Positions 5,569 to 23,091 of a DNA stretch of 64,000 nucleotides are shown here, piece by piece. The notes beneath the pieces are model-generated. The model did not search any database and had not been told where the DNA came from. It saw only the letters and a list, made by a program, of their open reading frames with translations. Source of the DNA: Lacinutrix sp. C3R15 (lineage in GTDB: Bacteria > Bacteroidota > Bacteroidia > Flavobacteriales > Flavobacteriaceae). The position numbers and the translations under genes are program-made. The stretch covers positions 372,001-436,000 of the forward strand of contig NZ_JAHKPZ010000004.1 in the NCBI RefSeq assembly GCF_018860825.1. Reading direction: 5' to 3'. The stretch's first letter is position 1; each line of letters opens with the position of its first letter.

Positions 5569-6050
5569 GAATTAATGTTTGATTGCAATTAGGTTTATAG
5601 GATAAAAATACTAAAATCTTTATGACTTATCATGTTAGTAAAAAGCTAAACTTTAAGGTCTGTTAAGGACCTTAAGCTTAACTAATTCACAAAAAGACTA
5701 ATCAAAATATTTTTATATATAACTTCTAAATTATAATATCTAATTTTTATAAAAGTGCTTTTATAACCTGTTTAAAAAAACAGTGTAATGATTCTTTGTT
5801 TTTATGTTCACAAATTATAGTCACTTTATTTATTGTTAAAACCTTTATCTATATCCTAAGTATTAATATCTAGTATTTTATCTTAGGGAATGTTTAAAAT
5901 ATTAAACACTTTAGTTACAACTCTATGCTTTACTTCATTTTTAATTCTACGTTTAAGAAGAATAGAGTTGTTGTTGTAATCTATTTAATTTCTTTCTTTA
6001 AGAGTAGTAGTACAAACTCAACAACTCTCAAAGAAAGAAAAGATTAAATG
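5569..6050. promoter_or_regulatory. 482-base intergenic region between susD and the GntR gene, with inverted repeats
   Basis: No gene is visible. It holds an 8-bp perfect dyad (TTAAGGTC at 5653-5660, GACCTTAA at 5668-5675, spacer 7) and, just downstream of susD, an ATAGAGTTGT segment (5962-5971) that can pair either with 6019-6028 or with 5917-5926. A pyrimidine tract at 5983-5999 also pairs with 6030-6049. No clean TTG...TAnnTTTG promoter was seen on the minus strand, so the genes downstream may depend on read-through from susCD. Confidence 0.5.
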
Positions 6051-7391
6051 TTAATACCCTGTATTTTGAGTAATTACTCCATCTGTAGCAAGTATCTCTG
6101 AAACTGGAACAGGGAATAAGTGGTAATTAGGATTGATTGTTTCTTCCATTTCTGCATCTACAGTTCCTGTTCTTACTAAATCAAACCATCTGTGTCCTTC
6201 AAAAGCAAGTTCTAATCTTCTTTCGTCAAGAATAGCTTGTTTTACTAAAGGTTTAGTGTTAATGGTTGTAGGATCTAAAATATCTAGTCCTGCTCTTATT
6301 CTTATATCATCTAATAAAGGTAATACTGTACTTGCAGGAGCATTATTTTCATTTAATGTTTCTGCATATAACAGAATTATATCTGCTAATCTTATTTCTA
6401 TCCAATCGTGCTCAGCACCTTGACCACCATCTTTTGGAAATTTAATACAAGTTAAGCCATCATCACTAAGTGTTACCGCTCTTCTTAAATCTGTACCTCC
6501 ACCAGAAGCATCACTAGCATCAAAAGCAGCAACTAAATCTGGATCTACAGGATAATCTGCTTTTGGATCATCACCAACAAACCAGTTCCAAAAATCGGAA
6601 GCAGGAGAGTACTCATCTACTATAGAGCTTACTATTTGCGTTGAAAATATTATTTCAGAATTTTCTACCTCATTAGCAGCTCCAAAAATTTCATCAAAAT
6701 TGGTTTTTAAACTAATTCCAGCGGCCGAAGCTCCGTTTACAACAGCAGCTAAATGTGGTTCTGCACTTGCATAATTACCCATTGCTGCGTATGCTTTACC
6801 TAATAAAGCTTGCGCTGCATAGTAAGAAGCTCTTCCGTCTGTAATAGATGTTTCTAAAACATCCATAGCATCATTTAAATCTGGAATGATTACATTGTTA
6901 TAAACATCTGCAGCTGGTTGTCTTACTAAAATAGATGTATCATTTAGGTCAGGTGTTGCAGATAAGTTAACAGTAACATCACCAAAAACTTGTACTAATT
7001 TATAATAAGATAAAGCTCTTAAAAATTTTGCTTCTGCTATATGAGTTTCATCTGTAGAATTTTCAATTACGTTATTTGTACTTAATATAGACTTGTATAA
7101 AGCGGTGTAGAATGGTCCGAAAAATTGATCTTCCATGGCGGTTAGTCCGTTGTCATATTCATCAAACTCAGTAAATGGAGATTCGTCCATTACAGCATTG
7201 TCTGATCTAAATTCACCCATTACAGCCATTGGAGTAACTGTACCAAGTTGATAATAATATGCTGCATTTAATACACCTTCAAAATCTGTTAAAGAATCAG
7301 AGTTTGCAATATTTGATGGAGATTGGTCTAAATCTGTAGAACATGCAGTCATGAAAAACAACGACCCCAATATTATATATATTTTTTTCAT
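6051..7391 (-). CDS. SusD/RagB-like outer-membrane glycan-binding lipoprotein (alginate)
   Basis: 446 residues. A type II signal peptide ends in FFMTAC, lipidating Cys17, so the protein sits on the outer membrane facing outward and caps its SusC partner encoded 11 bases upstream. The N-terminal helix-rich half and the C-terminal segment beginning near DERRLELAFEGHRWFDLVRT are typical of SusD/RagB proteins. The neighbouring lyases indicate that it binds alginate oligosaccharides. It is on the short side for the family (often 480-550 residues), in line with other alginate SusD proteins. Confidence 0.93.
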   Translation of the reverse strand: MKKIYIILGSLFFMTACSTDLDQSPSNIANSDSLTDFEGVLNAAYYYQLGTVTPMAVMGEFRSDNAVMDESPFTEFDEYDNGLTAMEDQFFGPFYTALYKSILSTNNVIENSTDETHIAEAKFLRALSYYKLVQVFGDVTVNLSATPDLNDTSILVRQPAADVYNNVIIPDLNDAMDVLETSITDGRASYYAAQALLGKAYAAMGNYASAEPHLAAVVNGASAAGISLKTNFDEIFGAANEVENSEIIFSTQIVSSIVDEYSPASDFWNWFVGDDPKADYPVDPDLVAAFDASDASGGGTDLRRAVTLSDDGLTCIKFPKDGGQGAEHDWIEIRLADIILLYAETLNENNAPASTVLPLLDDIRIRAGLDILDPTTINTKPLVKQAILDERRLELAFEGHRWFDLVRTGTVDAEMEETINPNYHLFPVPVSEILATDGVITQNTGY

Positions 7392-7402
7392 TTTGTTTTT
7401 TT

Positions 7403-10400
7403 TTAAAAATTAATATTTAAACCTAAAGTAAAACTTCTAACAACAGGGCTTACACCAAATTGAGATCCATACGTTGTAGGTCCTAAATAATCACTACCAG
7501 ATGTGGTTACACCTTCAGGGTTGTATGAAGTATAGTCATCTGCCCATACGTATAATAGGTTAGTTGCAGCAACATATGCTCTAACAGAACTTAATCCTAC
7601 TTTATTAATTAAATCCTCATTAAGAGTATAACCAATAGTTATGTTTTTTAAAGCGATAAAAGAAGCGTCTTGTATCATTGCGTCTGTTTGATTTCTGTTA
7701 TCTGTATAATGTTGTCCATTATGGTCAGCAATACCATCGTCATCTGTATCAAAACTACTAGTTAATCTTCCTCCCCATTGCGAACCATAGTAAAGCGGGT
7801 CTATATTATAAACTTCTGCACCATGAGATCCTTGAAATTGTAAAGACATATCTAAAGATTTATAGCTAAAGTTATGCGACATTCCCCAATAAAAATCTGG
7901 TGTGTTTTGTCCTATTTTCACTAAATCTCCACCATCTTCAACGGTTCTTGTATTATCAATTACACCGTATCCTTCTTCACCAGGAGATTGTTGATCTACA
8001 ACATAACTTGCTCCAGATTGGTTGTTAACATATTGTGAAGCGTCTGCTAGATATTCCATTTCTACTTCACCAGTAGTTTCTAATCCCCACATTTCACCAA
8101 TACCACCACCAACATAATTTCTAAATACTGGTCCTCTACCACTTGTTCCGTAGATTGCTTGTGGTAATTCACTTAAACCACCTAAGTCTGTAATTTCTGT
8201 ATTTACTGTAGATAAGTTAGCTCCAAAACTCCAAGAGAAATTATCAGTATTCAGAACTCTTGCGTTTAATTCAAATTCCCAACCAGAACTTCTTACATCT
8301 CCAGAGTTTAAAACTATAGATGGCGTACCTAATACTTCAGATACACTTTGGTTAATTAAGATATCTTCAATATCAGAAGTGTAGTAATCTACACCTAAGG
8401 TAAATCTGTTATTTAATACACCGAAATCTATACCATAGTTAGTTTCTGTGTTTGTTTGCCATGTTAAGTCTGGATTTGCTATGTTTTCAGGAATTAAGTA
8501 TCCAGTACCATAGTAAGTTGCTTGAGGCTCTAAAAGACTTAAAGCATCATATGAATCTAAAAAAGAAGCAGTACCTAATGAACCGTAGCTAAATCTTAAT
8601 TTTAATTTGCTAAGTATATCGCTATCTTCAAGGAAAGATTCGTTATTCACATTCCATCCTAAAGAAAATGCTGGGAAAGTTGCATATTTTTTATTTGCAC
8701 CAAAACGAGAATCACCATCTCTTCTTACAGATACAGATACTAAAAAACGGTCGTCATATGCGTAGTTAACTCTACCAAAAACACTCTGTCTTACTCTAGT
8801 TTCATCTCTTTCTGTAACAGTAATGTCAGCAGGATCAAATAAACCGTAATTAAGTATAGGCTCATCTGGTACATTTACACCATCTAAAGCAACACCTACT
8901 AACTTGGTGTTTTGAAATTCCATACCTGCAACTGCAGATATATCGTGCTTACCAATTTCTTTTGCAAAATTTAAAGTAGTTTCACTTAATACAGAAGATA
9001 CTTTTAAATCTGTTTGATCCATATAGGTTTGTGAAGTTCTTGCTCTAGAATCAAAACCTATTAATCTATGCTCGTAAAAACGTGTGTCTTTAAGATCTCC
9101 ACCTAAAACAGTTTTTACATTTAAACCGTCTAAAATTTCATATTGTAAATAAGAACTTACATTACCAAAATAGGTTTTTTCCCAACGGTCTGTATTGTCA
9201 AGTTTAGCTGCAGGACCAGCATCACCAGATCCTCCAATACCATTATTACTTCTACCATAATGCCAGTCTTGTGCTGCCATACCTGGTTCTAAATCATAAA
9301 TGCTACTTGCTTCATAACCTGAACCTCTATAACCATTATCAAAAGGGTCTAATCCTAAAGATTGTGCTTGTGCATCTAATTGTTGTACAAAAGCAATAGA
9401 TTCTGCAGTATGGTAAATAGGGCTAATTGGATATGCTCTTAAAAGATCTCGCATATCATGTCCTAAAATATCTCTGTCAGATGTAAAACCGTTAAAACTT
9501 ATTCCTGTTTTGAACTTTTCTCCTAGTTTAGCATCAACATTTAAACGAGCGTTTAATCTTTCAAAACCTTCTGTAATGATAACACCTTTAGAGTTTTGAT
9601 AACCAATAGAAGCAAAGTAATTAACATCGTCAGTTCCTCCGCTCATACTAAAGTCATGACTTGTAGTGTTTCCGTTACGAAATAACCATTCTTCTGGGCT
9701 AATAGCACCAGGAGAGTTTTCATAAGCACTTAATCTATACTCTAAAAAATCTGGATCCACATTGTCTACTGTACCTTGCCAGTTACCTGCAGCAATTTCA
9801 GATCTTGCTTCAGAAGCAAATTCAGAAGCATTTTTTATAATGTTTTTACGATATTTACTAGAAAAGCTAGTGTAGGTATTGTAGCTAAATCTAGCTTTAC
9901 CCGTTTTCCCTTTTTTAGTAGTAACTAAAATAACACCATTAGCACCTCTAGAACCATAAATAGCTGCAGAAGCAGCATCTTTTAAAATTTCTAAACTTTC
10001 AATATCATTTGGGTTAACCGTTTCTAAACCTCCAGAAATAGGAAATCCATCCACAACAATTAATGGACTAGACTCACCAGATATGGAAGAAGCTGCTCTA
10101 ATTTGAATTTTTGGAGCTGCACCAGGAGAACCATCTTGATTTTGAATTAATACACCAGGTAATTTACCTGCTAAAGCTTCGTCTACACGTGTTGCTTGTA
10201 CTGCAGCAACGTCTTCACCACCAACACTAGATACAGATCCTGTAAGGTGTGATTTTTTACGAGTACCATAACCAACAACAACAACCTCATCTAGGTTATT
10301 AGCATCTTCTGCTAATGATATATCAATTGTACTCTGGTTGTCAATAACCACTGTTTGCGCAAGGTAACCTATATAAGAAAATTGAATAACATCTCCTTTG

Positions 10401-10600
10401 TTTACTTCTATTTGATAGTTACCATCAAAATCTGTACTTGTACCTGTACTAGTACCAACAATAATTACGTTAACACTTGGCAACGGCATGTTGTCATTAG
10501 CGTCTACTACTAGCCCTTTAATTATTAATTTGTCTTGGGCAAAGGCAGAAAAGCACAGAAAGAGAACTGCAAATAATGCCAATTTAGATTTTAAATTCAT
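7403..10600 (-). CDS. SusC/RagA-like TonB-dependent transporter (alginate oligosaccharides)
   Basis: 1065 residues. Signal peptide 1-21 (cut after AFA), a carboxypeptidase-regulatory-like domain at about 26-110, then the TonB-dependent plug (VVVGYGTRKKSHLTGS, GSRGANGVILVTTKKGKTGK) and a 22-strand barrel ending in FTLGLNINF with the C-terminal Phe. It imports alginate oligosaccharides into the periplasm using TonB energy, paired with the SusD lipoprotein. First gene of unit A; it has a ~205-base leader carrying a terminator-like hairpin, downstream of a promoter overlapped by tandem GntR-type dyads. Confidence 0.95.
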   Translation of the reverse strand: MNLKSKLALFAVLFLCFSAFAQDKLIIKGLVVDANDNMPLPSVNVIIVGTSTGTSTDFDGNYQIEVNKGDVIQFSYIGYLAQTVVIDNQSTIDISLAEDANNLDEVVVVGYGTRKKSHLTGSVSSVGGEDVAAVQATRVDEALAGKLPGVLIQNQDGSPGAAPKIQIRAASSISGESSPLIVVDGFPISGGLETVNPNDIESLEILKDAASAAIYGSRGANGVILVTTKKGKTGKARFSYNTYTSFSSKYRKNIIKNASEFASEARSEIAAGNWQGTVDNVDPDFLEYRLSAYENSPGAISPEEWLFRNGNTTSHDFSMSGGTDDVNYFASIGYQNSKGVIITEGFERLNARLNVDAKLGEKFKTGISFNGFTSDRDILGHDMRDLLRAYPISPIYHTAESIAFVQQLDAQAQSLGLDPFDNGYRGSGYEASSIYDLEPGMAAQDWHYGRSNNGIGGSGDAGPAAKLDNTDRWEKTYFGNVSSYLQYEILDGLNVKTVLGGDLKDTRFYEHRLIGFDSRARTSQTYMDQTDLKVSSVLSETTLNFAKEIGKHDISAVAGMEFQNTKLVGVALDGVNVPDEPILNYGLFDPADITVTERDETRVRQSVFGRVNYAYDDRFLVSVSVRRDGDSRFGANKKYATFPAFSLGWNVNNESFLEDSDILSKLKLRFSYGSLGTASFLDSYDALSLLEPQATYYGTGYLIPENIANPDLTWQTNTETNYGIDFGVLNNRFTLGVDYYTSDIEDILINQSVSEVLGTPSIVLNSGDVRSSGWEFELNARVLNTDNFSWSFGANLSTVNTEITDLGGLSELPQAIYGTSGRGPVFRNYVGGGIGEMWGLETTGEVEMEYLADASQYVNNQSGASYVVDQQSPGEEGYGVIDNTRTVEDGGDLVKIGQNTPDFYWGMSHNFSYKSLDMSLQFQGSHGAEVYNIDPLYYGSQWGGRLTSSFDTDDDGIADHNGQHYTDNRNQTDAMIQDASFIALKNITIGYTLNEDLINKVGLSSVRAYVAATNLLYVWADDYTSYNPEGVTTSGSDYLGPTTYGSQFGVSPVVRSFTLGLNINF

Positions 10601-10732
10601 AATTGTTTTTTGTTTAGTTAATTAATTTGTTTTACTAAAAACATAAACATTAGCCAAGTATCAATATCTTTTATACTTTTGTAATATTATGTTTAATTAC
10701 ATGATTACTTCCCGTCGAAGAAGTATTTTTCC

Positions 10733-10765
10733 AAAAAAAGGATAGTGTTTACCTATCCTTTTTTT
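10733..10765 (-). terminator. Intrinsic terminator-like hairpin in the susC leader (possible attenuator)
   Basis: A 13-bp stem (seven A-U plus GGATAG/CTATCC), loop of 7 bases (10746-10752), followed in minus-strand RNA by seven U. It lies about 40-70 bases downstream of the predicted susC transcription start and 133 bases before the start codon. It could end read-through from unit B, or act as an attenuator of unit A. The A- and T-tracts make it symmetrical, but no plus-strand gene needs it. Confidence 0.75.
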
Positions 10766-10789
10766 TATTGGTTATAATTATAAAAATAA

Positions 10790-10842
10790 TTGGTTAACCA
10801 GATTGGTTTACCAAATATATATAAAATTTTGTTAAATACAAC
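10790..10842 (-). promoter_or_regulatory. susC promoter with tandem GntR/FCD-type operators (unit A)
   Basis: Two 12-bp dyads, TTGGTTAACCAG (10790-10801) and TTGGTTTACCAA (10803-10814), are 13 bp apart. The right dyad overlaps a minus-strand -7 element TATATTTG (10819-10812), with GTTG (10842-10839) as -33 and a 19-bp spacer: a full match to the Bacteroidota consensus. Binding would cover the -7 and start point, so repression is expected. The same 25 bp recur at 23039-23063. Confidence 0.8.
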
Positions 10843-10959
10843 GTTTTCGTAAAATTATATATGTTAATTTCTCTAATTGGTAAAAAAAAGCACTATTAAT
10901 TACGATTTTATACCATGTATTAGACTAAAGAAAGCTATTTGTGTACTTTCTTAAATAGA

Positions 10960-11000
10960 AGTAGCTCTATTTCATACGGGAGGTATGCTATAGAGCTACT
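10960..11000 (-). terminator. Strong 41-base hairpin after kdgF (end of unit B)
   Basis: Outer stem AGTAGCTCTAT/ATAGAGCTACT (11 bp; 10960-10970 with 10990-11000), a 2x2 internal loop, inner stem CATAC/GTATG and a GGGAG loop. It sits 54 bases after the kdgF stop. No long U tract follows, so it may be a 3'-end stabilising or processing structure rather than a textbook terminator. Confidence 0.6.
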
Positions 11001-11054
11001 GGTTAAAAACATTTAAGTTGTTTTTGTTTTGGTATTACTTAGTACGTATTTTGT

Positions 11055-11429
11055 TTATTCTTTATCTCCAAAATAAGATACACCATCACCACTTAAAAAG
11101 TCTTCTCTTACAGGACTAAATGTATCAATTAGTTCTCCTTCTTCTAGACAAACTGCACTATGTAGTAGGTTAGGCTCAATATATACACCGTCTCCTGCTT
11201 CTACAATATGTTTTTCTCCATCAATTTCAAATTCAAATTTACCAGAAACACAATAAGTGGCTTGTGTATGAAAATGTTGGTGTGGCGCACCTAATGCTCC
11301 TTTGTTAAATTTTACTCTTACCATCATGATTTGGTTATCATAACCTAAGAACTTTCTAGATACTCCACCGCCAAGTTCTTCCCATTCCATGTCTTTTGTA
11401 ACAATGTACTTTTCGCTAAATCTTTTCAT
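11055..11429 (-). CDS. kdgF: KdgF-like cupin (unsaturated uronate to DEH conversion)
   Basis: 124-residue single-domain cupin. Candidate metal ligands are His50, His52, Gln56 in HQHFHTQ and His90 in LLHSAV. KdgF proteins catalyse linearisation of 4,5-unsaturated uronate monomers from alginate or pectin into the keto form (DEH), a step that otherwise happens slowly on its own. It lies 18 bases after the PL17 exolyase gene, whose product releases exactly that monomer. No signal peptide is visible, so it should act in the cytoplasm (or where a monomer carrier delivers substrate). Confidence 0.88.
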   Translation of the reverse strand: MKRFSEKYIVTKDMEWEELGGGVSRKFLGYDNQIMMVRVKFNKGALGAPHQHFHTQATYCVSGKFEFEIDGEKHIVEAGDGVYIEPNLLHSAVCLEEGELIDTFSPVREDFLSGDGVSYFGDKE

Positions 11430-11447
11430 AATTTTAATCGTTTTTAT

Positions 11448-13736
11448 TTATTTGAAATAATAAGAACCTGACCACTCATAATTCTTATCGTTAATTTTTA
11501 ATGTATGTTTTGCTTCTTTTGATGCGTTATTGTTTGCTAATATAAATACTTTAGAAACACCAGATTTTAATTGTAATTCTAAGGCTGTATATTTTACGTT
11601 GTCTATTAAGACTTTTATAGATTTAAAAGAGCTGTATGCGTTGTTTGCTTTTTCGGATATTGGATTGTAATTACCATGAGGTTCTATAATAGAAGCAAAC
11701 ACCGTTGCTTTTGTATTTTTCTTTCTTAGTATTATTGAAGGATCTCTTCTTAGGTTAAATTCTGGGTCGTTGGCTCCAATTCTTGCTAAAATAATAGCAT
11801 CCTCATTAGAAGTTGCACTTGTAAGACTGTAAAATTTTCTGTTGTTTAACCAGGTAAATTGAATATTATCTGCTTTTGCTTTACTTTCGGTTTCTTTCCA
11901 TAAGTGCTGATATCCGTTTTTTGTACCTAAAGGTGTTAGGCTTTTAGTGGCTTCTGTTTTAAAGCTTGTTGCTATTATTTGACCAAAATAATAATATGGT
12001 AAATCGTATTGGTTTGCCTTTTCTGCAGTTACTTTAAAAATGTCAATTACAAAAGGTTTGTCATGTGCTGCATCTTTAACTAGAAGCATGGTTCTATGAA
12101 AATTAGTGCCAGGATATGCATTTGTTTCTTTTGCACTCATGATTTGCACTTCGGGGTTTGAAGCATCAAATAGATATTTTTCAGAATGATTGTTACTTCC
12201 TATTTCAAAATCATTATTAAAATGAGAGGTTTCATTTTGTGTTATGGTATTGTGTGCAATGGTTTGTTTTGCAAACGTTTTGTTTTCTTTTAAATAACCA
12301 CCTCCATTTTTTTGCTCGACATTTACAAATCTTGATAGACCGTAATCTTGTAGCACTTCTTCGCCGTTTTCATATAGTGAAAATGACAATTTATCATAAT
12401 GACCATGACTTAAACCTTGTCCTGTATATTTCATTACTAAGGCCGTAGTGTTAGCATCATTGTTATACCTTAAAATACCAACGGCTCCTTCATCTCCCTT
12501 AGCTCCATCAGAAAGTTCCATAGATTTTTTTAAGAATGGTTTTTCCTTTTTGTCGCGTAAACCAATAGCAACTTCAAGCCCTGAAGCGTCTAGTTGTACT
12601 TGGTTTTGTGCTTTTGCCACAGATAGTAATTCTGATTTTTTGTCTCCATAGTAATATGCAATGTCTACAACAGATACTAATGAGGCAGTGAAGTAAGACA
12701 TTCCTTTTTGCCCATCATTTAAAGGAAAGAATTCACCATCTGCATCTGTTAAATTTAAAAGCGCATCTACAGCTTTTAAAAGTACCGCATCTTTATACTC
12801 AAAAATCTTTAATTCTGGTTTTTTGTTTTGCAGAGCTTCAGCAAAAATCATAAATGGATACATGGCGTAACGTTGGTAATATGGTCCTTCGGTATAAAAA
12901 CCGTCAGGAGAAAAAGGACTATCTAAATTTGCTAAAAATCCAGCTTTACCATCTTTATCATAAATATAACCACCATCGTTATCTAAAGCGTCTGTATCTA
13001 TATCTACATTTTTAAGTCCGTATAATGCACGGTTTACTAATTCTTCATCCTCCATAACTAAACCAATCATACCAACAGAAACATTTCCCCAAGTACTATG
13101 GTTATGAATACGGTTGAAATATTTAGGTGTTTCTATAGATAAGAAATCTGCATATGGTTTAAATAAATTTTTATTTAAATAGTCACTTTGTTCTTTTGGT
13201 AGCCAATTGTAAATACAATCATACGCCTGACTTGTGTAGGTTAACCAATTAGAGTCGTTAAGACATTGCCAGAAAAATTTACCTCTAGCGTAAGAGCGTT
13301 CTTGCGGATGACGACCTAAAGTAGGGTACATTTTAGCATATTCTAACAGCATGTCTCTTACATAAATTGCGTATTTTTCATCTCCTAAAAGTTGAAATAA
13401 TACACCTGCTTTTTGCATGTTTTTATAGTTAGCGGTATGTTGTGAGTGCGTGTAACCACCAGCCATATCTTTAGGTATTGGCACATCTATACCTGCTTTA
13501 ATGGCAAGGTCTACTTCTTTTTGTGTAGCTGCTAGAGTTGCATCAAAAACGGGAATGTTTCCTAACTGCGATTTTATTTCTGCAACACTTTTTTGCGTTA
13601 AGACTAAATTAGGATGACTTCCTGTTGTATTAGTGTTAGTGGTAGCCACAGGATTGTTTTCTTTTTTGCAAGATACAATGGTAAGTACAATTGCTACTAT
13701 AGCTAATTTTAATATATTGTTATTTATTAGTTTCAT
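11448..13736 (-). CDS. PL17 oligoalginate lyase (exolytic), lipoprotein
   Basis: 762 residues. Lipoprotein signal ending IVSC (Cys23), then an alpha/alpha toroid alginate-lyase domain (about 60-370) and a heparinase II/III-like beta-sheet domain (about 390-740). Active-site features known from PL17 are visible: Asn212-His213 in HNHSTWGN, the tyrosines in GFYTEGPYYQRY (residues 279-290), and GLSHGHYDKLSF in the second domain. The family trims alginate oligosaccharides from the end to unsaturated monouronate. Probably periplasmic, membrane-anchored. The operon places it 6 bases after a PL6 gene and 18 before kdgF. Confidence 0.93.
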   Translation of the reverse strand: MKLINNNILKLAIVAIVLTIVSCKKENNPVATTNTNTTGSHPNLVLTQKSVAEIKSQLGNIPVFDATLAATQKEVDLAIKAGIDVPIPKDMAGGYTHSQHTANYKNMQKAGVLFQLLGDEKYAIYVRDMLLEYAKMYPTLGRHPQERSYARGKFFWQCLNDSNWLTYTSQAYDCIYNWLPKEQSDYLNKNLFKPYADFLSIETPKYFNRIHNHSTWGNVSVGMIGLVMEDEELVNRALYGLKNVDIDTDALDNDGGYIYDKDGKAGFLANLDSPFSPDGFYTEGPYYQRYAMYPFMIFAEALQNKKPELKIFEYKDAVLLKAVDALLNLTDADGEFFPLNDGQKGMSYFTASLVSVVDIAYYYGDKKSELLSVAKAQNQVQLDASGLEVAIGLRDKKEKPFLKKSMELSDGAKGDEGAVGILRYNNDANTTALVMKYTGQGLSHGHYDKLSFSLYENGEEVLQDYGLSRFVNVEQKNGGGYLKENKTFAKQTIAHNTITQNETSHFNNDFEIGSNNHSEKYLFDASNPEVQIMSAKETNAYPGTNFHRTMLLVKDAAHDKPFVIDIFKVTAEKANQYDLPYYYFGQIIATSFKTEATKSLTPLGTKNGYQHLWKETESKAKADNIQFTWLNNRKFYSLTSATSNEDAIILARIGANDPEFNLRRDPSIILRKKNTKATVFASIIEPHGNYNPISEKANNAYSSFKSIKVLIDNVKYTALELQLKSGVSKVFILANNNASKEAKHTLKINDKNYEWSGSYYFK

Positions 13737-13742
13737 AGCTAG

Positions 13743-16085
13743 TTAGTTTTGAGTAACAATTCCTATTTCTTTTTTGTCTGTTCCTTTTTCTTTTAATGCA
13801 GAATCGTTGGTTAATTCAAAAGAACCTTCTTTAAAAGTAGGTTCTATATTAAAAAGGTTTTCAATATTGTATTTTTCATCTCCAGTAACTTCTATTTTTC
13901 CTGATTTGTAATAGTTGTTATTAACTACATTTACAATTGGCTCACCAACTACTAAATGCATTTTTAAGCCATTTGTGTTATTGAAGTTGTTGTTTTGAAT
14001 ATCATTAACCTGCACGCCATATAATGACATTGCAGCTTGGTATTTGTTCTTTTTGCCAAAACCTACATTGTTAAATACGTTGTGGTCTATTTCTAAAAAC
14101 GGACCAAAGGTGCTTTCGTCTTTTCCTCCTCTATATAAACGTAATGCTGCACCTTGTACGTCTGTAACCGTATTGTTTTTCATAATAAAATACTCTACGT
14201 TGTATGCGCCAATATCATCGGTTTCTTTGTCTAAGGCTGCAATATGACCAGTAATATTTTTGAATTTAGAATTTTGAATACTTATGGTATCTGCAAAGGT
14301 ACCTTTAGAAACTCTAAGTACATCGAACGAGTGATTTACTACAAAGTCTGTAAACTCACAATGATCTATAAATAGTTTGTAGTTTTCTATCATTGATTTT
14401 TTACTAGTGCTAATCACTGCATTTCCTGCATAATCAGGAGCACTTGCTCCATCAAATTTTATATTATCAAGAGATAAGCTTCCTCCGTTTTGAATTTCTA
14501 AAGCCATCATACGTTCAAACAAAATAATTGGTTTTTCTTTTTTAGAAGCTTTTATGGTTAAAGGATGCGCTATTTTTGCCGCTTTAGTTAATAGGTAGGT
14601 TTCGCCAGAAGTTAGTACTAAAATATCTCCTGGATTTGAATTTTTAGTAGCTTCATATAAAGTATTAATTCCTGGTTTTACAGTTATTGTTTTTCCAGAA
14701 TTTAAAGCAACCATTTTATCTTCTTTAGAGTACCAAGTTGTTCCTGTATTTTCTTTAGTTGCTATTTTAGGACTAATAGTAATCTTGTTTTTTATTTTAT
14801 CTGAAGTAGGTATTAAAAAACCTTGTTTATTTTTTACTAGTGTAATGTCTGCGTTTTCAAAACCTTCTTTAATACTTGTGGTGTTGTTTTGCCCTAGAAT
14901 ATTATCTTTAAACGTAATACCACTAATGTCATCATATATTGTAAATATGTCTTTAGGGTTTTCATTGTAAAAAATGTTTTCTGAAATTTCTGAAGTACTA
15001 GGAGCTTGGCTTCTTTCGGCATCGCTTCCTGCGCATAGTTGAATATGCTCACAATTTACAAATGTATTGTTGTTTAATTTAGAATCTATTACAGGAACAT
15101 ATCTGTTTGGTGGTGAGTTTGGTACACCATTCATCATTACAAATGCACCTCTAAAACGATATCCTGTTAAGCCAATATGGTAGTTATTGATAACGGTTTG
15201 TTTTTCATTAATTATACGAACACCTCCTGTGCTTGGTTTGTTGTTTCCTATAAATACGTTACCATCAACTAATGTTTCGTTTCCGTGACGCATGGTTAGT
15301 GTTCCTGTACACTCAAAAAAGGTGTTGTATTTAAAGGTGTTTTGGCAAGATTTGTTAGAAATAATTTCATGCTCACCATTGGTTCTATCAAAATAATTAG
15401 ACGCTACTAAAGTGTTTGAGTTTTCTAATGCATGATGACTAGTACCTATTCTTAACGTTTCTCCTCCATTGTTTCCAAAGGTAGGACGGGGTCCAAAATA
15501 ATTATGATCGATTTGGTGGTTGTTAGCAACACTTGCTTTGGTGTCTAAACCAACAATCATAGTTACTCCTAAGTTTTTTTTACCTACTATGTGGTTGTGG
15601 TCTATTCGGTTATTTTTACCGTAAATAGTAATCCAATAATCTTGAACGTGACGTTCTGGGTTGTTGTAATTATCAATAACACATTCTGTTAGTCTTGTGT
15701 TATTTGCAATTTCTTTTTTGTTTTTTCGGAAAGAAATAACTGCATTTGTTGGTGTATAACCGTTTTTAAACACAAGCCCTTCAACTATTAAGTGTTCGCC
15801 AGCAAGTTGTAAATTAGATGCACCTTCTAAAGTTACCTTTCCTTTTTCTTGAACAGTAAGTGTAATTGGCTTATCTACTGTACCGTTTCCTTCAAAAACA
15901 AGTTCTGCATCTTTCCATATACCATTAGCCATGGTAATAACGTCACCAGGATTGGCGTTTTTTACAGCCTTATTAAATTCTGTGGTGTTTTTAACTAGTA
16001 AAGTGTTGGTGTTTTTGTCTTTACAAGATAATGTTAAGAGTAAAATTAAGACTGAAACACAAGAGAACTGTAGTTTATTTTTCAT
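13743..16085 (-). CDS. PL6 alginate lyase, two-domain lipoprotein (copy 1)
   Basis: 780 residues, lipidated at Cys21 (LTLSC). Two right-handed beta-helix domains: the N-terminal catalytic PL6 domain (about 28-440) and a second parallel helix (about 465-775) starting NTLYEATKNSNPGD. Catalytic residues by comparison with chondroitinase B and AlyGC: Lys245 (ISNKS) and Arg266 (MRHGN), with Glu238/Glu240 as calcium ligands. The two-domain form is like the guluronate-active AlyGC, but specificity cannot be read from sequence alone. First gene of unit B; the GntR-type operator ends only 8 bases from the start codon. Confidence 0.92.
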   Translation of the reverse strand: MKNKLQFSCVSVLILLLTLSCKDKNTNTLLVKNTTEFNKAVKNANPGDVITMANGIWKDAELVFEGNGTVDKPITLTVQEKGKVTLEGASNLQLAGEHLIVEGLVFKNGYTPTNAVISFRKNKKEIANNTRLTECVIDNYNNPERHVQDYWITIYGKNNRIDHNHIVGKKNLGVTMIVGLDTKASVANNHQIDHNYFGPRPTFGNNGGETLRIGTSHHALENSNTLVASNYFDRTNGEHEIISNKSCQNTFKYNTFFECTGTLTMRHGNETLVDGNVFIGNNKPSTGGVRIINEKQTVINNYHIGLTGYRFRGAFVMMNGVPNSPPNRYVPVIDSKLNNNTFVNCEHIQLCAGSDAERSQAPSTSEISENIFYNENPKDIFTIYDDISGITFKDNILGQNNTTSIKEGFENADITLVKNKQGFLIPTSDKIKNKITISPKIATKENTGTTWYSKEDKMVALNSGKTITVKPGINTLYEATKNSNPGDILVLTSGETYLLTKAAKIAHPLTIKASKKEKPIILFERMMALEIQNGGSLSLDNIKFDGASAPDYAGNAVISTSKKSMIENYKLFIDHCEFTDFVVNHSFDVLRVSKGTFADTISIQNSKFKNITGHIAALDKETDDIGAYNVEYFIMKNNTVTDVQGAALRLYRGGKDESTFGPFLEIDHNVFNNVGFGKKNKYQAAMSLYGVQVNDIQNNNFNNTNGLKMHLVVGEPIVNVVNNNYYKSGKIEVTGDEKYNIENLFNIEPTFKEGSFELTNDSALKEKGTDKKEIGIVTQN

Positions 16086-16092
16086 GAATAAA

Positions 16093-16144
16093 TTGGTTTA
16101 CCAAATTGGTTTACCAATATACATGAATTTTAAAGCTATGCAAA
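16093..16144 (-). promoter_or_regulatory. PL6/PL17/kdgF promoter with tandem GntR/FCD-type operators (unit B)
   Basis: Two perfect copies of TTGGTTTACCAA (16093-16104 and 16106-16117), again 13 bp apart. A minus-strand -33 TTTG (16144-16141) is 19 bp from a -7 variant TATATTG (16121-16115, one base shorter than consensus) that overlaps the outer operator. This implies a short leader of about 20-25 bases, largely covered by the operator. An alternative -7, TAGGTTTG (16173-16166), lacks a -33 partner. Confidence 0.72.
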
Positions 16145-16201
16145 ATAATCTATAGAGATTTAACTCAAACCTATGCTATTTTGATAATCACTTGTATTGT
16201 T

Positions 16202-17476
16202 TTAAAAATATTCTGTTAGTGCTAATATTCCATTGTACGATATAATACAGGCAAAAAGGAGTGAAGCGAAAAGGCCAACATTAACAAAAATACTTGTTTT
16301 GTATCCTTGCATTATTTTTTTGTTATTCACTATTAGTATAATACCTAGAATAACAATTGGTAAAACAAATACATTGAATACTTGTGATAGAATTTGAATT
16401 TCTATTGGGTTTGCACCAAAAGCAGGACCAATTAAAGCGACTAAGCAAGCAACAGCAGTAATAATTCTAAACTGTTTTGAGCTGGTATCTAATTCACCAG
16501 ATTGGTAATCTGCTATTAATAAAGGAGCTATTAACAAGCAAGGAAAAATAGAAGAAAGCCCAGCGCTTAAAGCACCAAAAAAGAATATAGAAACAGCCCA
16601 TTTACCTGCAACAGGCTCTAATGTGTTAGCCATATCTAATACTTGCGAAACCTCTTTGCCTTGGTAGTATAAAGCGCCAGCAGCTACAGCCATAATTACA
16701 CCACTAATAATAAATATTAAAATTGCAGCTGTAATAGAGTCTTTTTTCTGTTGATCTAAATTTTTAATAGTCCATCCTTTTCCTTTTACAAAAAGAGGTC
16801 TAGATAAAAATGTAGCAGATGCCATAGTAGTACCAACAAAAGCAGCCACCAACATTTTACCACCAGGAACATCTGGTATTGTTGGTATTAATCCTTTAAC
16901 CACATCTATAGAAAGTGGTTGTACAAAACATAAAGATAGTATAAAGGATAAACCCATTAAAGTTACAAATATGACTAGTATTTTTTCGAAAAAAGTATAC
17001 TTACCAACGAGCATTAACAGGTAAAAAGTAACTATAATAATAATGGCAGTAATTAAAACAACTTCATATTTATAAGCGATTAATCCTTTAAAATTGATGG
17101 CTAATATTTCAAAAATAATATTAGATGAAATCCCTAAAATACCCATTAAAGAATTCCATTGCCCAAAAGTAATACCTATAATGATTGCTATAGCTAATAT
17201 TTTTCCGAATTTAAAATGTTTTTTAAATCCGTAAAGAGCCGTTTCTCCTGTTATTAAAGCGTAATTTCCATAAGCAAACATTAAAACTCCAGAGAACAGA
17301 CAGCTTATTAAAAGTACCCATAATAATTGCATATTAAATTTGCTTCCTGCAACAATCATTGATGTTACACTACCTGTACCAATAGTGTAACCAATAGCAA
17401 AAATACCAGGTCCAAACCCTAATATTATAGCTATTATTTTTTTTAGAAATGATTTATTTGGTGTTGTGGCATCCAT
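16202..17476 (-). CDS. Nramp-fold (SLC11-like) membrane transporter lacking canonical metal motifs
   Basis: 424 residues, about 11 membrane segments. The TM1 region aligns base-for-base in length with MntH (GP...QLLW) but the metal-binding DPGN is GTGS (33-36), and the TM6 MPH is ASA (219-221). These are the residues that hold Mn/Fe in true Nramp proteins, so divalent transition-metal transport is doubtful; the substrate is unknown. It ends unit C, 35 bases after the gluconokinase/6PGDH fusion, which suggests a role in sugar-acid or alginate-bound cation handling. A conventional annotation would be Nramp family divalent metal transporter. Confidence 0.75.
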   Translation of the reverse strand: MDATTPNKSFLKKIIAIILGFGPGIFAIGYTIGTGSVTSMIVAGSKFNMQLLWVLLISCLFSGVLMFAYGNYALITGETALYGFKKHFKFGKILAIAIIIGITFGQWNSLMGILGISSNIIFEILAINFKGLIAYKYEVVLITAIIIIVTFYLLMLVGKYTFFEKILVIFVTLMGLSFILSLCFVQPLSIDVVKGLIPTIPDVPGGKMLVAAFVGTTMASATFLSRPLFVKGKGWTIKNLDQQKKDSITAAILIFIISGVIMAVAAGALYYQGKEVSQVLDMANTLEPVAGKWAVSIFFFGALSAGLSSIFPCLLIAPLLIADYQSGELDTSSKQFRIITAVACLVALIGPAFGANPIEIQILSQVFNVFVLPIVILGIILIVNNKKIMQGYKTSIFVNVGLFASLLFACIISYNGILALTEYF

Positions 17477-17511
17477 AATATGAGTTTATTTGTTGATTAT
17501 TGGGTTCTTTT

Positions 17512-19395
17512 TTAATTCCAGTTGGTATGATAGCTTTTTCCTGAGGTATCGTCAAGCCTTTGGTAGGTGTGTGCTCCAAAATAATCACGCTGTGCTTGAA
17601 TAATATTAGCTGAAGCGTATGCTGTTGTTATACCGTTAAAAAACTGAATAGCTTCTGCTAAAGCAGGACTTGTAATATCATTAAGTATACATTGTGAGAC
17701 TACTTTTTTTGCAGCAGGTTTGTATTGGTTTACAATCGCTATTAATTGCGTGTTGGTTAAAATATTGGTTGTGTCTTTAAAGATGTTTACTAATTCTTCC
17801 ATTAAGGTTGATCTAATAATGCAACCGTTAGTCCATATTCTGGCAATTTCGCTTAGGTTTAAATTCCATTCAAATTTATTGGAAGCTTCTGCTATTAACT
17901 TAAAACCTTGGTAATGATTTATGATTCTTGCAAATTGATAAGCTTCTAAAACCTCATTAGTAGTTATGTTTAACTGAGAAGTGTTTTCTTTTTTGAAACT
18001 CTCGTTTAATTGTATTCGTTCCTCTTTATAAAAAGAGATGTAGCGTGAAAATAGGGCAGAGGCAATTAATGTATTTGGTACACCAAGTTCTGCAGATGCA
18101 ATGGTTGTCCAGTTACCAGTTCCTTTATTACCTGCTTTGTCTAGTATTTTATTTACTAACCAATCGTCACCTTCTTTCTTTTTAAAAATAGCAGTTGTAA
18201 TTTCTAATAAATAACTGCTAGCATTGTCTTTCCAGGAATCTAAAGTGTTAGCGATTTCGTTAGGGTTTTGCCCTAAAGCTTTTAAGATTGTTGCAACCTC
18301 AGCTAGTAATTGCATTTCAACATATTCTACGCCATTGTGAACCATTTTTATAAATTGGCCACTGCCTTCAGGACCAACATATGTACAACAAGGTAAACCG
18401 TTTTTGTCTTTAGCAGCAATAGTTTCTAAAAAGGGAGCTACTTTGCTATAAGCGTCTTTATCTCCACTTGGCATTATAGATGGTCCCTTTAAAGCGCCTT
18501 CTTCACCACCAGAAACTCCGGTTCCTATAAAATGAATGCCTTTAGTTTTTAAATAATCAAAACGCTCTTTGGTTTTTTTGTAGTTAGAGTTTCCTCCATC
18601 AATTATAATATCGTTTTCAGATAAATGCGGAAGTAAATCTTCTATCACATAATCTATTGTTTTTCCTGCATTCACCATTAGCATGATGCGTCTTGGTTGT
18701 TGTAAAGAATTTACAAAACCTGCAATGTCATCAAAAGCTTCTGCTTGGGATAGCTCTGAATGTTGTGCTTTAAAATTTTTAGCAATATTTTCTTCAACAC
18801 CATCTACATGTCTGTTAAACATAGAAATTTTAAAACCGTTGTTAGCTAAATTTCTACATAGGCTTTTTCCCATAACTCCTAAACCAAATAATCCAAATTC
18901 TGAGGTATTCATTAATTCGTTTTTTATAGTTTTTATAATATTTTTTGGTGATAAACTAATATCTATTTGCATGGCATCTTTAGGTTCTTCTAAAGTGTCG
19001 AATTGTGATTTTAGTAATTTGGAAGGCATAAAATGGTCTGATCGACTATTCATTCTTTCGTAAATTTGCTCAAAAGTGCCTGATAAATATATCCATTTTG
19101 TTTGCTTGTGAATATCCTGACTTAAAATGTCGCGATATTTTTGCTTTAATGCAGAGCATACAATAACACAGCTGTTTTTAGTCAACTGTTTTTTAGCTAA
19201 ATGGTTTAACGTTTCTAGCCAACCTTGTCTGTCATCATCATTTAAGGCTTTTCCGTTAGACATTTTAGTAATGTTACTTTCTGGATGAAAATCGTCTCCA
19301 TCAAAAAAAGGAATGTCTAATTCTTTAGATAATAAATTTCCGATGGTACTTTTTCCACAACCAGAAACTCCCATTACAAATATTACTTTTTTCAA
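17512..19395 (-). CDS. Fused gluconokinase / 6-phosphogluconate dehydrogenase
   Basis: 627 residues. Residues 1-161 are a complete gluconokinase: P-loop GVSGCGKST (9-17), DGDDFHP, and CSALKQKYRD. Residues 162-627 are a complete 6-phosphogluconate dehydrogenase: Rossmann GLGVMG, IIDGGNSNY, and the catalytic signature GSGQFIKMVHNGVEY with Lys, His, Asn and Glu. Together they would turn gluconate into ribulose-5-phosphate, making NADPH. The join is direct (NELMNTSEFGLF), and Met162 could also serve as an internal start. It lies 11 bases after the PL7 gene. NADPH supply for the DEH reductase is a plausible reason for its presence here (inference). Confidence 0.9.
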   Translation of the reverse strand: MKKVIFVMGVSGCGKSTIGNLLSKELDIPFFDGDDFHPESNITKMSNGKALNDDDRQGWLETLNHLAKKQLTKNSCVIVCSALKQKYRDILSQDIHKQTKWIYLSGTFEQIYERMNSRSDHFMPSKLLKSQFDTLEEPKDAMQIDISLSPKNIIKTIKNELMNTSEFGLFGLGVMGKSLCRNLANNGFKISMFNRHVDGVEENIAKNFKAQHSELSQAEAFDDIAGFVNSLQQPRRIMLMVNAGKTIDYVIEDLLPHLSENDIIIDGGNSNYKKTKERFDYLKTKGIHFIGTGVSGGEEGALKGPSIMPSGDKDAYSKVAPFLETIAAKDKNGLPCCTYVGPEGSGQFIKMVHNGVEYVEMQLLAEVATILKALGQNPNEIANTLDSWKDNASSYLLEITTAIFKKKEGDDWLVNKILDKAGNKGTGNWTTIASAELGVPNTLIASALFSRYISFYKEERIQLNESFKKENTSQLNITTNEVLEAYQFARIINHYQGFKLIAEASNKFEWNLNLSEIARIWTNGCIIRSTLMEELVNIFKDTTNILTNTQLIAIVNQYKPAAKKVVSQCILNDITSPALAEAIQFFNGITTAYASANIIQAQRDYFGAHTYQRLDDTSGKSYHTNWN

Positions 19396-19406
19396 TGTGT
19401 TTTATT

Positions 19407-20459
19407 TTATTGGTTAGGTGCTGTTCCTTCTCCTACAGTTGCTTCTTTAAACCAAACTTCGGCATAACAACCGTTTGCATATTGTTTTGCAATATCTCCA
19501 TTATAAGTTTCAGAACCTGTGTGCCATACTATGTTTTCTTCTGGGTTTTTACCATTAGTTTGATTGTAAGCACCTTGTTTAAAGTAGTTAATTTCACCAG
19601 CATAAGCGCTATCACGTTCAACACCATCACGACCAATGGTTGCATATAGTTTCCAGATTTGCTCAGGTATATCTTTTTTAGAAGCAAAGTCTGATTGTAA
19701 CAAGTTCTTGGTGAATTTTACCGTTTCATGTCCTTCACTTGTAAAGGTAAGATACATGATGCCTTTGTATACGTTTATTTCATAACTAAACTCTTCGCCT
19801 AAAGCTATACCATCTTTTGGTTCTTCTGGGTATGTGTTAGGAGCGGTACCAATAACAGACATGTCATTTCCCCAAACTGCAGTTGAATAATCCCAACGTG
19901 TAGAATTGTCTTCACCATCTGTATTTATTTCATAATTCCAGAATACAGACCCTTTGGTGTGTCCAGGAAATTTTTTGTAGAAGATTTTTATAGGTTCGTT
20001 TTCGTGACCTTCATCACTATGAATTTGACCAACTACTACAGAATACGAAGCTGCCACTCTAGCATCACCAGAGGTTGAAACATGTTGTACCTTTAATGTA
20101 CCTGTTAATTTACCACCAACTTCTGGAATCCAATGTTTTTTTTGACCTAATTCTGTTCTGGTATTATTAGAAGTACGCGATGTGATTCCTGAATTTGGTG
20201 TTTTGTACACTACCCAGTCTGTATCATTTTCATGTGCTACATAAAAGAAATCATCTTTAGCATAATTGACTAATGAATCTTGATAAGTTCCGTCTCCTAA
20301 AAGAATTTTCCACTGCTCCATAAACGGAATTACATCACTTGGATACTTGTCTTTCTTTGCGGTTTCATTTTTTACTGAAGCCTCTGTATTTGTTTTTGTA
20401 TCGTTTTTACACGCAACGATTAGTAAAAAGGTAAAGATTGTAAATAGTATTTTTTTCAT
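19407..20459 (-). CDS. PL7 alginate lyase, lipoprotein
   Basis: 350 residues. Lipoprotein signal ending IVAC (Cys17), a short linker, then one alginate-lyase-2 jelly roll (about 45-340). The three PL7 motifs are visible: RTELG (first motif, Gly instead of the common Arg at the end), QIH, and YFKQGAYNQ. QIH, rather than QVH, is generally linked to activity on guluronate-containing stretches. It is an endolytic beta-elimination enzyme that cuts alginate, most likely at the cell surface. Encoded 36 bases after the PL6 gene and 11 bases before the GntK-Gnd fusion. Confidence 0.93.
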   Translation of the reverse strand: MKKILFTIFTFLLIVACKNDTKTNTEASVKNETAKKDKYPSDVIPFMEQWKILLGDGTYQDSLVNYAKDDFFYVAHENDTDWVVYKTPNSGITSRTSNNTRTELGQKKHWIPEVGGKLTGTLKVQHVSTSGDARVAASYSVVVGQIHSDEGHENEPIKIFYKKFPGHTKGSVFWNYEINTDGEDNSTRWDYSTAVWGNDMSVIGTAPNTYPEEPKDGIALGEEFSYEINVYKGIMYLTFTSEGHETVKFTKNLLQSDFASKKDIPEQIWKLYATIGRDGVERDSAYAGEINYFKQGAYNQTNGKNPEENIVWHTGSETYNGDIAKQYANGCYAEVWFKEATVGEGTAPNQ

Positions 20460-20495
20460 GGTAAGCGTTTATGTTTTGTTTAGGAAAAGTTTATG

Positions 20496-22823
20496 TTAGT
20501 ACATTAACTTCATCACTAAGTTTTCTTCGGTTTTTATTTGTCCAGAATTAGTTATTCTGTTGTTAGATTCTACATTGTTTTTTGCTCCCCAAAGAATAGA
20601 AACAAATTGTACCTTATTGTCTTTAAATGTATTGTTGTTAATATCTACATTAACAATTCCGTTGTGGTTTAGCAGTCTTTTGTTTTTTTCGTTTACACCA
20701 CAATTGGTAAAAGTGCTGTTGGTTATTAATAGGTTTCCGCCAATGGTAGACTCGTCATAACCACCTCTATAATAATCAACAACGTTTTGTTTTACGTTAT
20801 TAAAATTACAGTTTTTAATGGTTAAATATTCTGTATTGTAATCCCCTTTGTCATTTGTTTCTTCAGATAATTCGATACCATTTTCACAGTTAGAAATAGA
20901 GGTGTTATCAAAAGTGATACGTTCTGCAAAGGATTCTTTATACACTTTTAATACATAATTAAAATCGCTGATTTCTGTATTTGAAACGTTTAACCCAAAA
21001 TGATTTGCCATGTTTTCTTTTAAGCTGGCAAAGGCATAATTAGAAGAATTTCCTTTTAATATTATGTTGTTAATACTTAGCTTTCCTTTAGACTGTAGTG
21101 AAAATAAAGGGGTGTTTGCCTTACCAGAAAAAACGAGTTGCGCTTTTTCATTTTCTTTAGACTGAATAGTTATGGTTTTATGGATAACTAAAGATTTGTT
21201 TATTGTATACATACCTTTTGCTACAGTAATAATATCGCCATTGCTAACTTGATCTATTTTAGTTTGTAAATCTTCGGCTTTAGTTACAATATGTGTTGTT
21301 GGGGTTTTAGCTTCTACTACGTTAGAATACCAGGAAGTACCATATTTTGATTTGTCTAAAATATTCGGGTTAGTAACTTCTGTATTTACAACCGCTCCTA
21401 TACTGTTACTGTTTTTTCTTGAGTTACCAAATAAATCTTTTGTGATCGTGTTAAAATCAAATCCGTTATACGCTTTTATTTCTGAAGGCATTCCTGTTGG
21501 AATAAAAATATTATCGGATACTTTTTTTAACTCTAAAGACGAAGCAGTAATACCACCATTAAAATCTTTGAAAGTAACCCCTTGATTGTCTATAATATTA
21601 CTTTTAAAAGTAACACCATCTGCTTTATCATTTTCTACTACAATATTTTCTAATCCTTTTTTATTATAAATAACATTATTAGCAAGGGTTGTTCTAATAG
21701 CTCTTGCAGAGCGTATTTCAGATTTTGGTAAAACGTCTGCTTGTGCAATATTTGTACCTACACCAAATTGCCAAGGTGAACTACAGTTTACATACGTGTT
21801 GTAAGCTATTACCACATCTGTTACTTGGTTGTAACGGTTTAAAGGTGATTTAGGTATACCATTCATTACTGCTAAAGGGCTTCTAAAGCTTGTGCCAACT
21901 AAGTTGAAGAAATAGTTATTGGTAACCCAATGTCCTGTGTTTATAATTCTAATGCCGCCAATGTTTTTATTGATGCCATCTCCAATAAAATAGTTACCGT
22001 CAATAATGCTATAGTTACCATGACGTGTTACTAAAGAACCTTCACTTTTGTAAAAAACATTATTTCTAAATTCATTAAAATTAGTTTTACTAGAAATTAC
22101 TTCTACTTCACCATTACACTCTTCAAACAAGTTATTAGCAACCAAGGTGTGACTTGGTGACATAGAGGTGAAACTATTACCTAGTTGAATGGTTTCTCCG
22201 CTTGGTCCTCCTTTTACAGGTCGTGGCCCAAAATGGTTATTGATAATTTGATGGTAATTATTAATGCTTTCTATACCTTCAATACTTACTCTTACAGTAG
22301 GACCTCTATTTGTTTTTCCGGCAATGTAGCAGTTGCTTAGTTCGTTGTTTCTTCCCCAAAACTGTACCCATAAATCGCTGTTATCGCGTTTGGGTTTGTT
22401 AAAATCTTCAATAACAGAATTGGTAAGTTTGCAATTGTATGCAATTTCATCCAATGTATCTTTGTTGCTTATTTTAAAATCTACTACTGCATTTGAAGGT
22501 GAGAAACCGTTTTTAAAATGTAATCCTTCCGCTATTAGATATTCACCACCAAATTTTAAATAAGATTTTCCTTCAATGGTTACTTTACCAGGAGTTTCTG
22601 CTTGTAAAGTAATTGGCTTTTCTTTGGTGCCTTTTCCTCTAAAATTAATTTCAACATCTTTATAAATACCGTTTGCTAAAACAATATGGTCTCCTGGTTT
22701 GGCTTGATTAATTGCAGAATTTAATTCTTCTATATTAGTTACTTTAATAAAGCTGTTTTTTGTTTCTTCTTTACAAGCTATAAGTAGTATGGATAAAAAT
22801 AGAATACAAACTGTTTTTTTCAT
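20496..22823 (-). CDS. PL6 alginate lyase, two-domain lipoprotein (copy 2)
   Basis: 775 residues, lipidated at Cys17 (LLIAC). Same two-domain architecture as the PL6 gene at 13743-16085, with catalytic Lys246 (ISSKT) and Arg267 (TRHGN) and calcium ligands Glu239/Glu241. The two copies match in layout through both domains but have clearly diverged in sequence, which suggests an old duplication with possible division of labour (for example guluronate-rich versus mixed blocks). First gene of unit C; the promoter lies about 230 bases upstream. Confidence 0.92.
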   Translation of the reverse strand: MKKTVCILFLSILLIACKEETKNSFIKVTNIEELNSAINQAKPGDHIVLANGIYKDVEINFRGKGTKEKPITLQAETPGKVTIEGKSYLKFGGEYLIAEGLHFKNGFSPSNAVVDFKISNKDTLDEIAYNCKLTNSVIEDFNKPKRDNSDLWVQFWGRNNELSNCYIAGKTNRGPTVRVSIEGIESINNYHQIINNHFGPRPVKGGPSGETIQLGNSFTSMSPSHTLVANNLFEECNGEVEVISSKTNFNEFRNNVFYKSEGSLVTRHGNYSIIDGNYFIGDGINKNIGGIRIINTGHWVTNNYFFNLVGTSFRSPLAVMNGIPKSPLNRYNQVTDVVIAYNTYVNCSSPWQFGVGTNIAQADVLPKSEIRSARAIRTTLANNVIYNKKGLENIVVENDKADGVTFKSNIIDNQGVTFKDFNGGITASSLELKKVSDNIFIPTGMPSEIKAYNGFDFNTITKDLFGNSRKNSNSIGAVVNTEVTNPNILDKSKYGTSWYSNVVEAKTPTTHIVTKAEDLQTKIDQVSNGDIITVAKGMYTINKSLVIHKTITIQSKENEKAQLVFSGKANTPLFSLQSKGKLSINNIILKGNSSNYAFASLKENMANHFGLNVSNTEISDFNYVLKVYKESFAERITFDNTSISNCENGIELSEETNDKGDYNTEYLTIKNCNFNNVKQNVVDYYRGGYDESTIGGNLLITNSTFTNCGVNEKNKRLLNHNGIVNVDINNNTFKDNKVQFVSILWGAKNNVESNNRITNSGQIKTEENLVMKLMY

Positions 22824-23038
22824 AACTAATGAATTAGGTTGTTGTTTTAAAAAGAAAAAAGGGCTTTTGTTTTTTAAAGACCTTTTTAAGTTTTAATATT
22901 TATTTTCTAACGCTTAAATTTCACTTTTTTAAATAAGTAAAACACTAGTGTTTGAGCGTGTTATATTGTTTTTTTATTTATACAATACTATTTACTTAAA
23001 GAAGGTGCGTCTTCGTAAAAATAGAATAGAACAATAAA
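22824..23038 (-). other. Leader/intergenic region upstream of PL6 copy 2
   Basis: This is the presumed 5' leader of unit C. It is AT-rich with no gene. A weak hairpin (AAAAAGG 22856-22862 with CCTTTTT 22881-22887) is followed by a U-rich stretch on the minus strand, close to the start codon; it is less convincing than the susC leader hairpin. A small GAAG/CTTC hairpin lies near 23001-23015. Confidence 0.4.
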
Positions 23039-23091
23039 TTGGTTAACCAGATTGGTTTACCAAAAATAGAGATATTTATTTAATTCGCAAA
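23039..23091 (-). promoter_or_regulatory. PL6/PL7/gntK-gnd promoter with tandem GntR/FCD-type operators (unit C)
   Basis: Dyads TTGGTTAACCAG (23039-23050) and TTGGTTTACCAA (23052-23063), identical to the susC site over all 25 bases. Minus-strand -7 TATTTTTG (23068-23061) and -33 TTTG (23091-23088) are 19 bp apart and in the same register with the operator as at susC. Confidence 0.8.

Follow-up and report, generated by a model that had tools for sequence, protein, structure and literature searches.

The alginate locus of Lacinutrix sp. C3R15 raises the question of which regulator controls its genes, and through which sites in the DNA. Brown algae contain alginate as a main polymer, and its consumers include marine flavobacteria. 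We analyzed a window of 64,000 nt (contig NZ_JAHKPZ010000004.1, positions 372,001 to 436,000) in which a gene for a GntR/FCD regulator (4831-5568, minus strand) lies within the alginate locus, and pairs of 12-bp dyads stand ahead of three sets of alginate genes. A reading of the letters without database searches (the sequence-only reading) had proposed that these pairs mark the regulon of that regulator and define its DNA motif. Our analysis indicates that this is very probably an AusR-type alginate regulon of a Flavobacteriaceae bacterium, controlled by a repressor encoded at 4831-5568; AusR is the Zobellia protein discussed below. We also consider it rather likely that the susC switch in alginate-eating Flavobacteriaceae is a double lock, composed of a promoter-fused GntR/FCD repressor and a dedicated, conserved family of cis-antisense small RNAs (sRNAs).

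The tandem pattern TTGGTNNACCANNTTGGTNNACCA was found with up to two mismatches at three places in the window, namely operator 1 (10790-10814, ahead of susC), operator 2 (16093-16117, 7 bp upstream of a PL6 start codon) and operator 3 (23039-23063), none of which is assigned a strand. At the same stringency, 100 dinucleotide shuffles of the window gave no match. The sequence-only reading had placed the pairs at these coordinates and had described sites 1 and 3 as identical across 25 bases, and both statements agree with the sequences, which are TTGGTTAACCAG-A-TTGGTTTACCAA for sites 1 and 3 and TTGGTTTACCAA-A-TTGGTTTACCAA for site 2. Its description of the dyad held in part: the start-to-start spacing is 13 bp and four of the six dyads are exact, but in sites 1 and 3 the promoter-distal dyad, TTGGTTAACCAG, is one base off, so that site 2 is the only site with two exact dyads. 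The genome scan that it had suggested returned these three places alone when one mismatch was allowed in the whole genome (3.61 Mb, 42 contigs), with no match for the reversed control. With up to three mismatches, six further matches appeared, two of which are the two strands of one place, and the control gave two matches per strand. The single dyad was unspecific, with 28 exact places genome-wide and, at up to one mismatch, 380 places versus 300 for the reversed control. Because single dyads are common in the genome, it is the tandem form that carries the signal, and single dyads were rejected as a regulon signal. A fifth exact single dyad of the window lies within an open frame (18075-18086), and one with a single mismatch (28191-28202), probably a chance occurrence, lies directly upstream of a minus-strand frame that starts at 28181.

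The protein encoded at 4831-5568 has an N-terminal GntR helix-turn-helix and a C-terminal FCD domain (both found with Pfam, as the sequence-only reading had expected), which fits the FadR/FCD subfamily of the GntR family. It is the sole FCD match found in the genome, and its matches in the PDB include PdhR and NanR. To relate regulator and motif, we compared 299 Flavobacteriaceae genomes, counting the tandem motif at up to one mismatch and taking as a close relative any protein with at least 47% identity, a cut chosen after the list had been inspected; the highest first match of a genome below it had 31%. The motif occurred in all 74 genomes with a close relative of the regulator versus 3 of the 225 others, and the reversed control pattern matched in 6 of the 299. 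This co-occurrence is an association, short of binding. Together with the sole FCD match and the alginate genes downstream, it supports the proposal of a candidate regulon and of the motif of its regulator.

The layout of the operator was then apparent from 81 loci of 5 to 26 kb each, which comprised the best 80 of at least 493 confirmed relatives' loci, none titled Zobellia, and the first 26 kb of the window. They contained 396 dyads when up to one mismatch was allowed, and the pairs no more than 60 bp apart were spaced by 13 bp (126), 26 bp (37), 33 bp (1) or 39 bp (1). Three scrambled palindromes, used as a control on the same loci, gave 240 dyads and one pair. With two mismatches allowed, 13 bp (161) and 26 bp (47) remained the commonest spacings. 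Clusters, defined as dyads in 13-bp steps with singles left out of the count, were present in 79 of the 81 loci; there were 116, comprising 72 double, 43 triple and 1 quadruple. The gene next after the cluster was susC in 74 cases, followed by PL17 (13), ausR (9) and PL7, PL6b, PL6a and MFS (2 each), and 12 clusters precede none of the genes of the window. In six Aquimarina loci (L094, L112, L113, L117, L124 and L141, near 9952), a tandem operator stands 24-25 bp ahead of ausR, which suggests that ausR may control itself there.

The sequence-only reading had noted that the operators lie where promoters are needed for the minus-strand genes, and this statement can be sharpened. Each operator shares bases with a −7 box, and a 19-nt spacer separates this box from a −33 element upstream: TATATTTG (10812-10819) with TTG at 10839-10841 for susC at operator 1, the −7-like TATATTGG (16114-16121) with TTTG at 16141-16144 at operator 2, and TATTTTTG (23061-23068) with TTTG at 23088-23091 at operator 3, all on the minus strand. 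The TAnnTTTG box of Flavobacterium psychrophilum occupies −12 to −5 (PMC9723704; here and below, statements on cited papers refer to the portions of them that were available). Transcription starts are therefore predicted on the minus strand near 10807, 16109 and 23056, inside the operators. The same fusion was seen across the 81 loci when the orientation of each cluster was set by the larger downstream open frame and promoters were ignored, which could be done for 114 of the 116 clusters (two lacked a gene or upstream sequence). On the gene-facing side, a −7-type box was joined to the first dyad in 107 of the 114 (96 of the form TAnnT/TTG and 11 of the form TAnn/TTGG), and on the far side such a box occurred in 28, of which 23 had the weaker form. 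Of the seven clusters without a gene-facing box, two have no box at all, and the other five carry the strong form on the far side, which may mean that their gene was misassigned. TTG stood exactly 19 nt ahead of the box in 47 of the 96 clusters of the TAnnT/TTG form.

From these observations on sequence, gene content, co-occurrence, spacing and promoter overlap, we infer the binding of a repressor, repression and an effector as follows. A dimer of the GntR/FCD repressor would sit on each 12-bp dyad, two dimers being 13 bp apart, and the dyad pair, with its first dyad fused to the −7 box, would cover about −7 to +18 (−8 to +17 at site 2). Because of this fusion, the repressor should block RNA polymerase directly, which is the simplest mechanism, and the bound protein would exclude the polymerase from the three promoters, those of susC-susD, of PL6-PL17-kdgF and of PL6-PL7-kinase/Gnd-Nramp. 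An intermediate of alginate breakdown would release it, by analogy with Zobellia AusR, which is reported to be released by such intermediates (PMC7874173, PMC8286568).

Several observations weigh against this model. The site 2 box, TATATTGG, is one base off the TAnnTTTG consensus, and at up to two mismatches other dyad spacings occur at low counts in the 81 loci. The tandem operator is absent, at up to three mismatches, from ausR and the genes that follow it (4841 down to 115), and an operator ahead of ausR, considered for the Lacinutrix genome, was rejected when the gap at 5569-6050 proved to be without a tandem match at that stringency. The orthology of the regulator to Zobellia AusR is itself presumed. 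Finally, the three genomes that carry the tandem motif without a close AusR relative (G061, G154 and G209) may reflect chance or another regulator. They are what speaks for the idea that the dyads are bound by some protein other than the FCD protein. We consider this idea very unlikely, since the motif is found in every genome with the regulator, the dyad arms fit the FadR-subfamily consensus TKGT/ACMA (PMC4494728) and 4831-5568 is the sole FCD match in the genome. That the regulator is an activator at these sites seems to us slightly less probable still. Sequence does not reveal the direction of control, but the overlap of the operator with the −7 box and the predicted start is the position of a repressor, and Zobellia AusR is reported as a repressor (PMC7874173, PMC8286568).

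The genes downstream of the three operators, all on the minus strand, include those of alginate use that the sequence-only reading had named, as judged with Pfam. Unit 1 (6051-10600) consists of susC (7403-10600) and susD (6051-7391). From 10600 down to 115, the minus strand carries susC, susD, the GntR/FCD regulator, an MFS transporter, two short-chain dehydrogenases, a PfkB kinase and a KDPG/KHG aldolase, so that the regulator gene lies between susD and the transporter, kinase and aldolase genes of the locus. Unit 2 (11055-16085) comprises PL6 (13743-16085), PL17 (11448-13736) and a cupin resembling kdgF (11055-11429); the Pfam models are Chondroitinas_B (PL6-type), Alginate_lyase with Hepar_II_III_C (PL17-like) and Cupin_2, and the PL and kdgF names are labels. 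Unit 3 (16202-22823) comprises PL6 (20496-22823), PL7 (19407-20459), a kinase/6-phosphogluconate dehydrogenase fusion (17512-19395) and, last, an Nramp metal transporter (16202-17476), and its genes are probably co-transcribed, given their close spacing on one strand. The best Pfam model for the kinase domain of the fusion is SKI, GntK being the label of the sequence-only reading. The fusion, which perhaps supplies NADPH for uronate reduction, has a match above 100 bits only in the window among the 81 loci, and Nramp has one in 8 of the 81.

The leader of susC appears to hold a second element of control. On the plus strand, a −7 box TACTTTTG (10674-10681), aligned among relatives, precedes a predicted antisense sRNA of about 81 nt (10686-10766) opposite the susC leader, with two hairpins followed by an intrinsic terminator; its ends are placed by the −7 box and the T-run. 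The terminator stops about 23 bp short of operator 1. The susC leader (10601-10810, including the operator edge) folds unusually well (z −4.9), as does the segment 10686-10767 (z −4.9), and the aligned susC leaders of relatives share a conserved block. We assembled 73 leaders that precede frames of at least 1000 amino acids, 46 of which, including that of the window, have both hairpins by pattern and were selected without use of the −7 box. An exact −7 box with a terminator was found in antisense orientation in 35 of the 73 leaders and in sense orientation in none, and each of 20 dinucleotide shuffles gave at most one such leader.

To follow the element beyond these leaders, a covariance model, R1, was trained on AusR loci, some of them from the same genomes, and matches in genomes were accepted at E ≤0.001. 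The one strong match in the Lacinutrix genome covers 10674-10762, with E 5e-10. The second best (E 0.006) lies at 10736-10819, on the opposite strand and overlapping the first, and three others had E 0.1 or worse. R1 matched in 67 of the 299 genomes, of which 64 were among the 74 with the regulator and 3 among the 225 without it (these three weaker than 3e-4), and at E 1e-5 it matched in 56 genomes with the regulator and in none without. A tandem operator lay within 150 bp of the match in 29 of the 30 best-match loci. The exception, L185, was measured wrongly, since its contig starts inside the flank; in L118, apparently the same contig as judged by length and coordinates, the operator lies at 286-310 and the element at 375-483. 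Within the genome, the element was seen at this susC alone among those above the family cut-off. The Lacinutrix genome encodes four SusC proteins above the curated cut-off, and the other three susC genes gave no strong R1 match; in the 450 nt upstream of them, an exact antisense −7 box was absent in two and occurred once in the third, 20 nt from the start codon. The leader that follows site 3 (22824-23058) had a fold z of −2.45 and no R1 match. Rfam gave no match at the gathering score at 10686-10766, with rows below that score only. The window's only Rfam match at the gathering score is a Flavo-1 RNA (RF01705) at 58402-58475.

Our first idea was that the susC leader is a cis-acting structure, an attenuator, on the sense mRNA. 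A strict scan for sense terminators was positive in 8 of the 73 leaders versus a mean of 0.46 and a maximum of 3 in 50 mononucleotide shuffles, the hairpins fold on the sense strand too, and the terminator hairpin is followed by a T-run whichever strand is read. The attenuator was downgraded, and we now consider it unlikely, because the conserved CAAAANTA block is a reversed −7 box and the wobble pairs favor the other strand. In the paired columns there were 48 G-U pairs on the antisense RNA versus 4 A-C (17 versus 4 without the most biased column pair), and counted per sequence 38 of the 46 leaders lean to antisense and 1 to sense, with 7 tied. The antisense −7 box was exact in 37 of these 46 leaders and within one mismatch in 45. 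The T-run was longer on the antisense strand in 38, shorter in 7 and equal in 1, several A-runs being misparsed, and its mean length was 6.2 versus 4.3 (some A-runs misread).

The antisense RNA has points against it as well. TTG was found 17-21 nt upstream of the antisense −7 box in only 3 of the 46 leaders, and its lack at the usual distance in the other 43 is in keeping with an attenuator. Covariation was modest, with two-sided change in 5 of 16 pairs and an almost invariant second hairpin, and 27 of the 73 leaders, many of them short, are without the two hairpins by pattern. Ten of the 74 genomes with the regulator had no R1 match, and since R1 was trained on AusR loci, its presence there is partly by construction, while its absence elsewhere is informative. 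On balance, we lean with moderate confidence toward a functional role of the antisense RNA as a second lock. Predicted at susC only, with transcription toward the operator, it would reduce the leaky expression of susC, as DonS does for its targets in Bacteroides, and it would set the threshold at which alginate uptake is switched on.

The operator is of a kind known from other systems. In Zobellia galactanivorans, AusR is described as a repressor of the GntR family that acts on alginate genes through one, two or three operator copies (PMC7874173, PMC8286568, PMC8073546), and because this system is published, the reading of the dyads as the candidate regulon of one regulator is not new. Common to both are a GntR regulator encoded in the alginate locus and multiple operator copies at alginate promoters; the window, with its three double operators, differs in having two-dyad operators at three units, one of them with the kinase/Gnd fusion and Nramp. 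The present analysis documents the 13-bp period and the −7 box fusion, and dyads every 13 bp fused to a −7 box give a precise and testable DNA rule for recognizing AusR regulons by sequence alone. The UxuR operator is a single palindrome, whereas that of the window is tandem. The sequence-only reading had likened the dyad arms to both UxuR and ExuR sites: the 2 nt between GT and AC of the half-sites are shared with UxuR, of the FadR subfamily, but not with ExuR, whose gap is put at 3 nt in a survey (PMC4494728). The window protein also has a sequence match to Escherichia coli NanR, a GntR-type repressor. Three NanR dimers occupy a repeated operator, and the effector sialic acid weakens binding (PMC8012715). 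Both regulators would place several dimers next to each other on repeated sites, whereas the NanR operator is (GGTATA)3 and that of the window has 12-bp dyads every 13 bp.

For the antisense RNA, we found no earlier report of such RNAs at polysaccharide utilization loci of marine flavobacteria in the open-license literature, and a flavobacterial transcriptome paper presents its own antisense RNA list as a basis for such studies (PMC9723704). The DonS family of Bacteroides consists of cis-antisense RNAs of 78-128 nt at susC homologues of polysaccharide loci (PMC7366714, PMC10994844, PMC11697453). The predicted RNA of about 81 nt opposite the susC leader resembles them in place and size, and differs in being predicted in Flavobacteriaceae, tied to an alginate locus and opposite a GntR-controlled promoter. 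If real, it would be a flavobacterial counterpart to DonS, and the control of polysaccharide loci by RNA, known from gut Bacteroides, would extend to marine Flavobacteriaceae. Given the precedents of AusR, NanR and DonS, the operator is of a known kind, and the predicted antisense RNA, the freshest lead of this analysis, may represent a new RNA family, again of a known kind.

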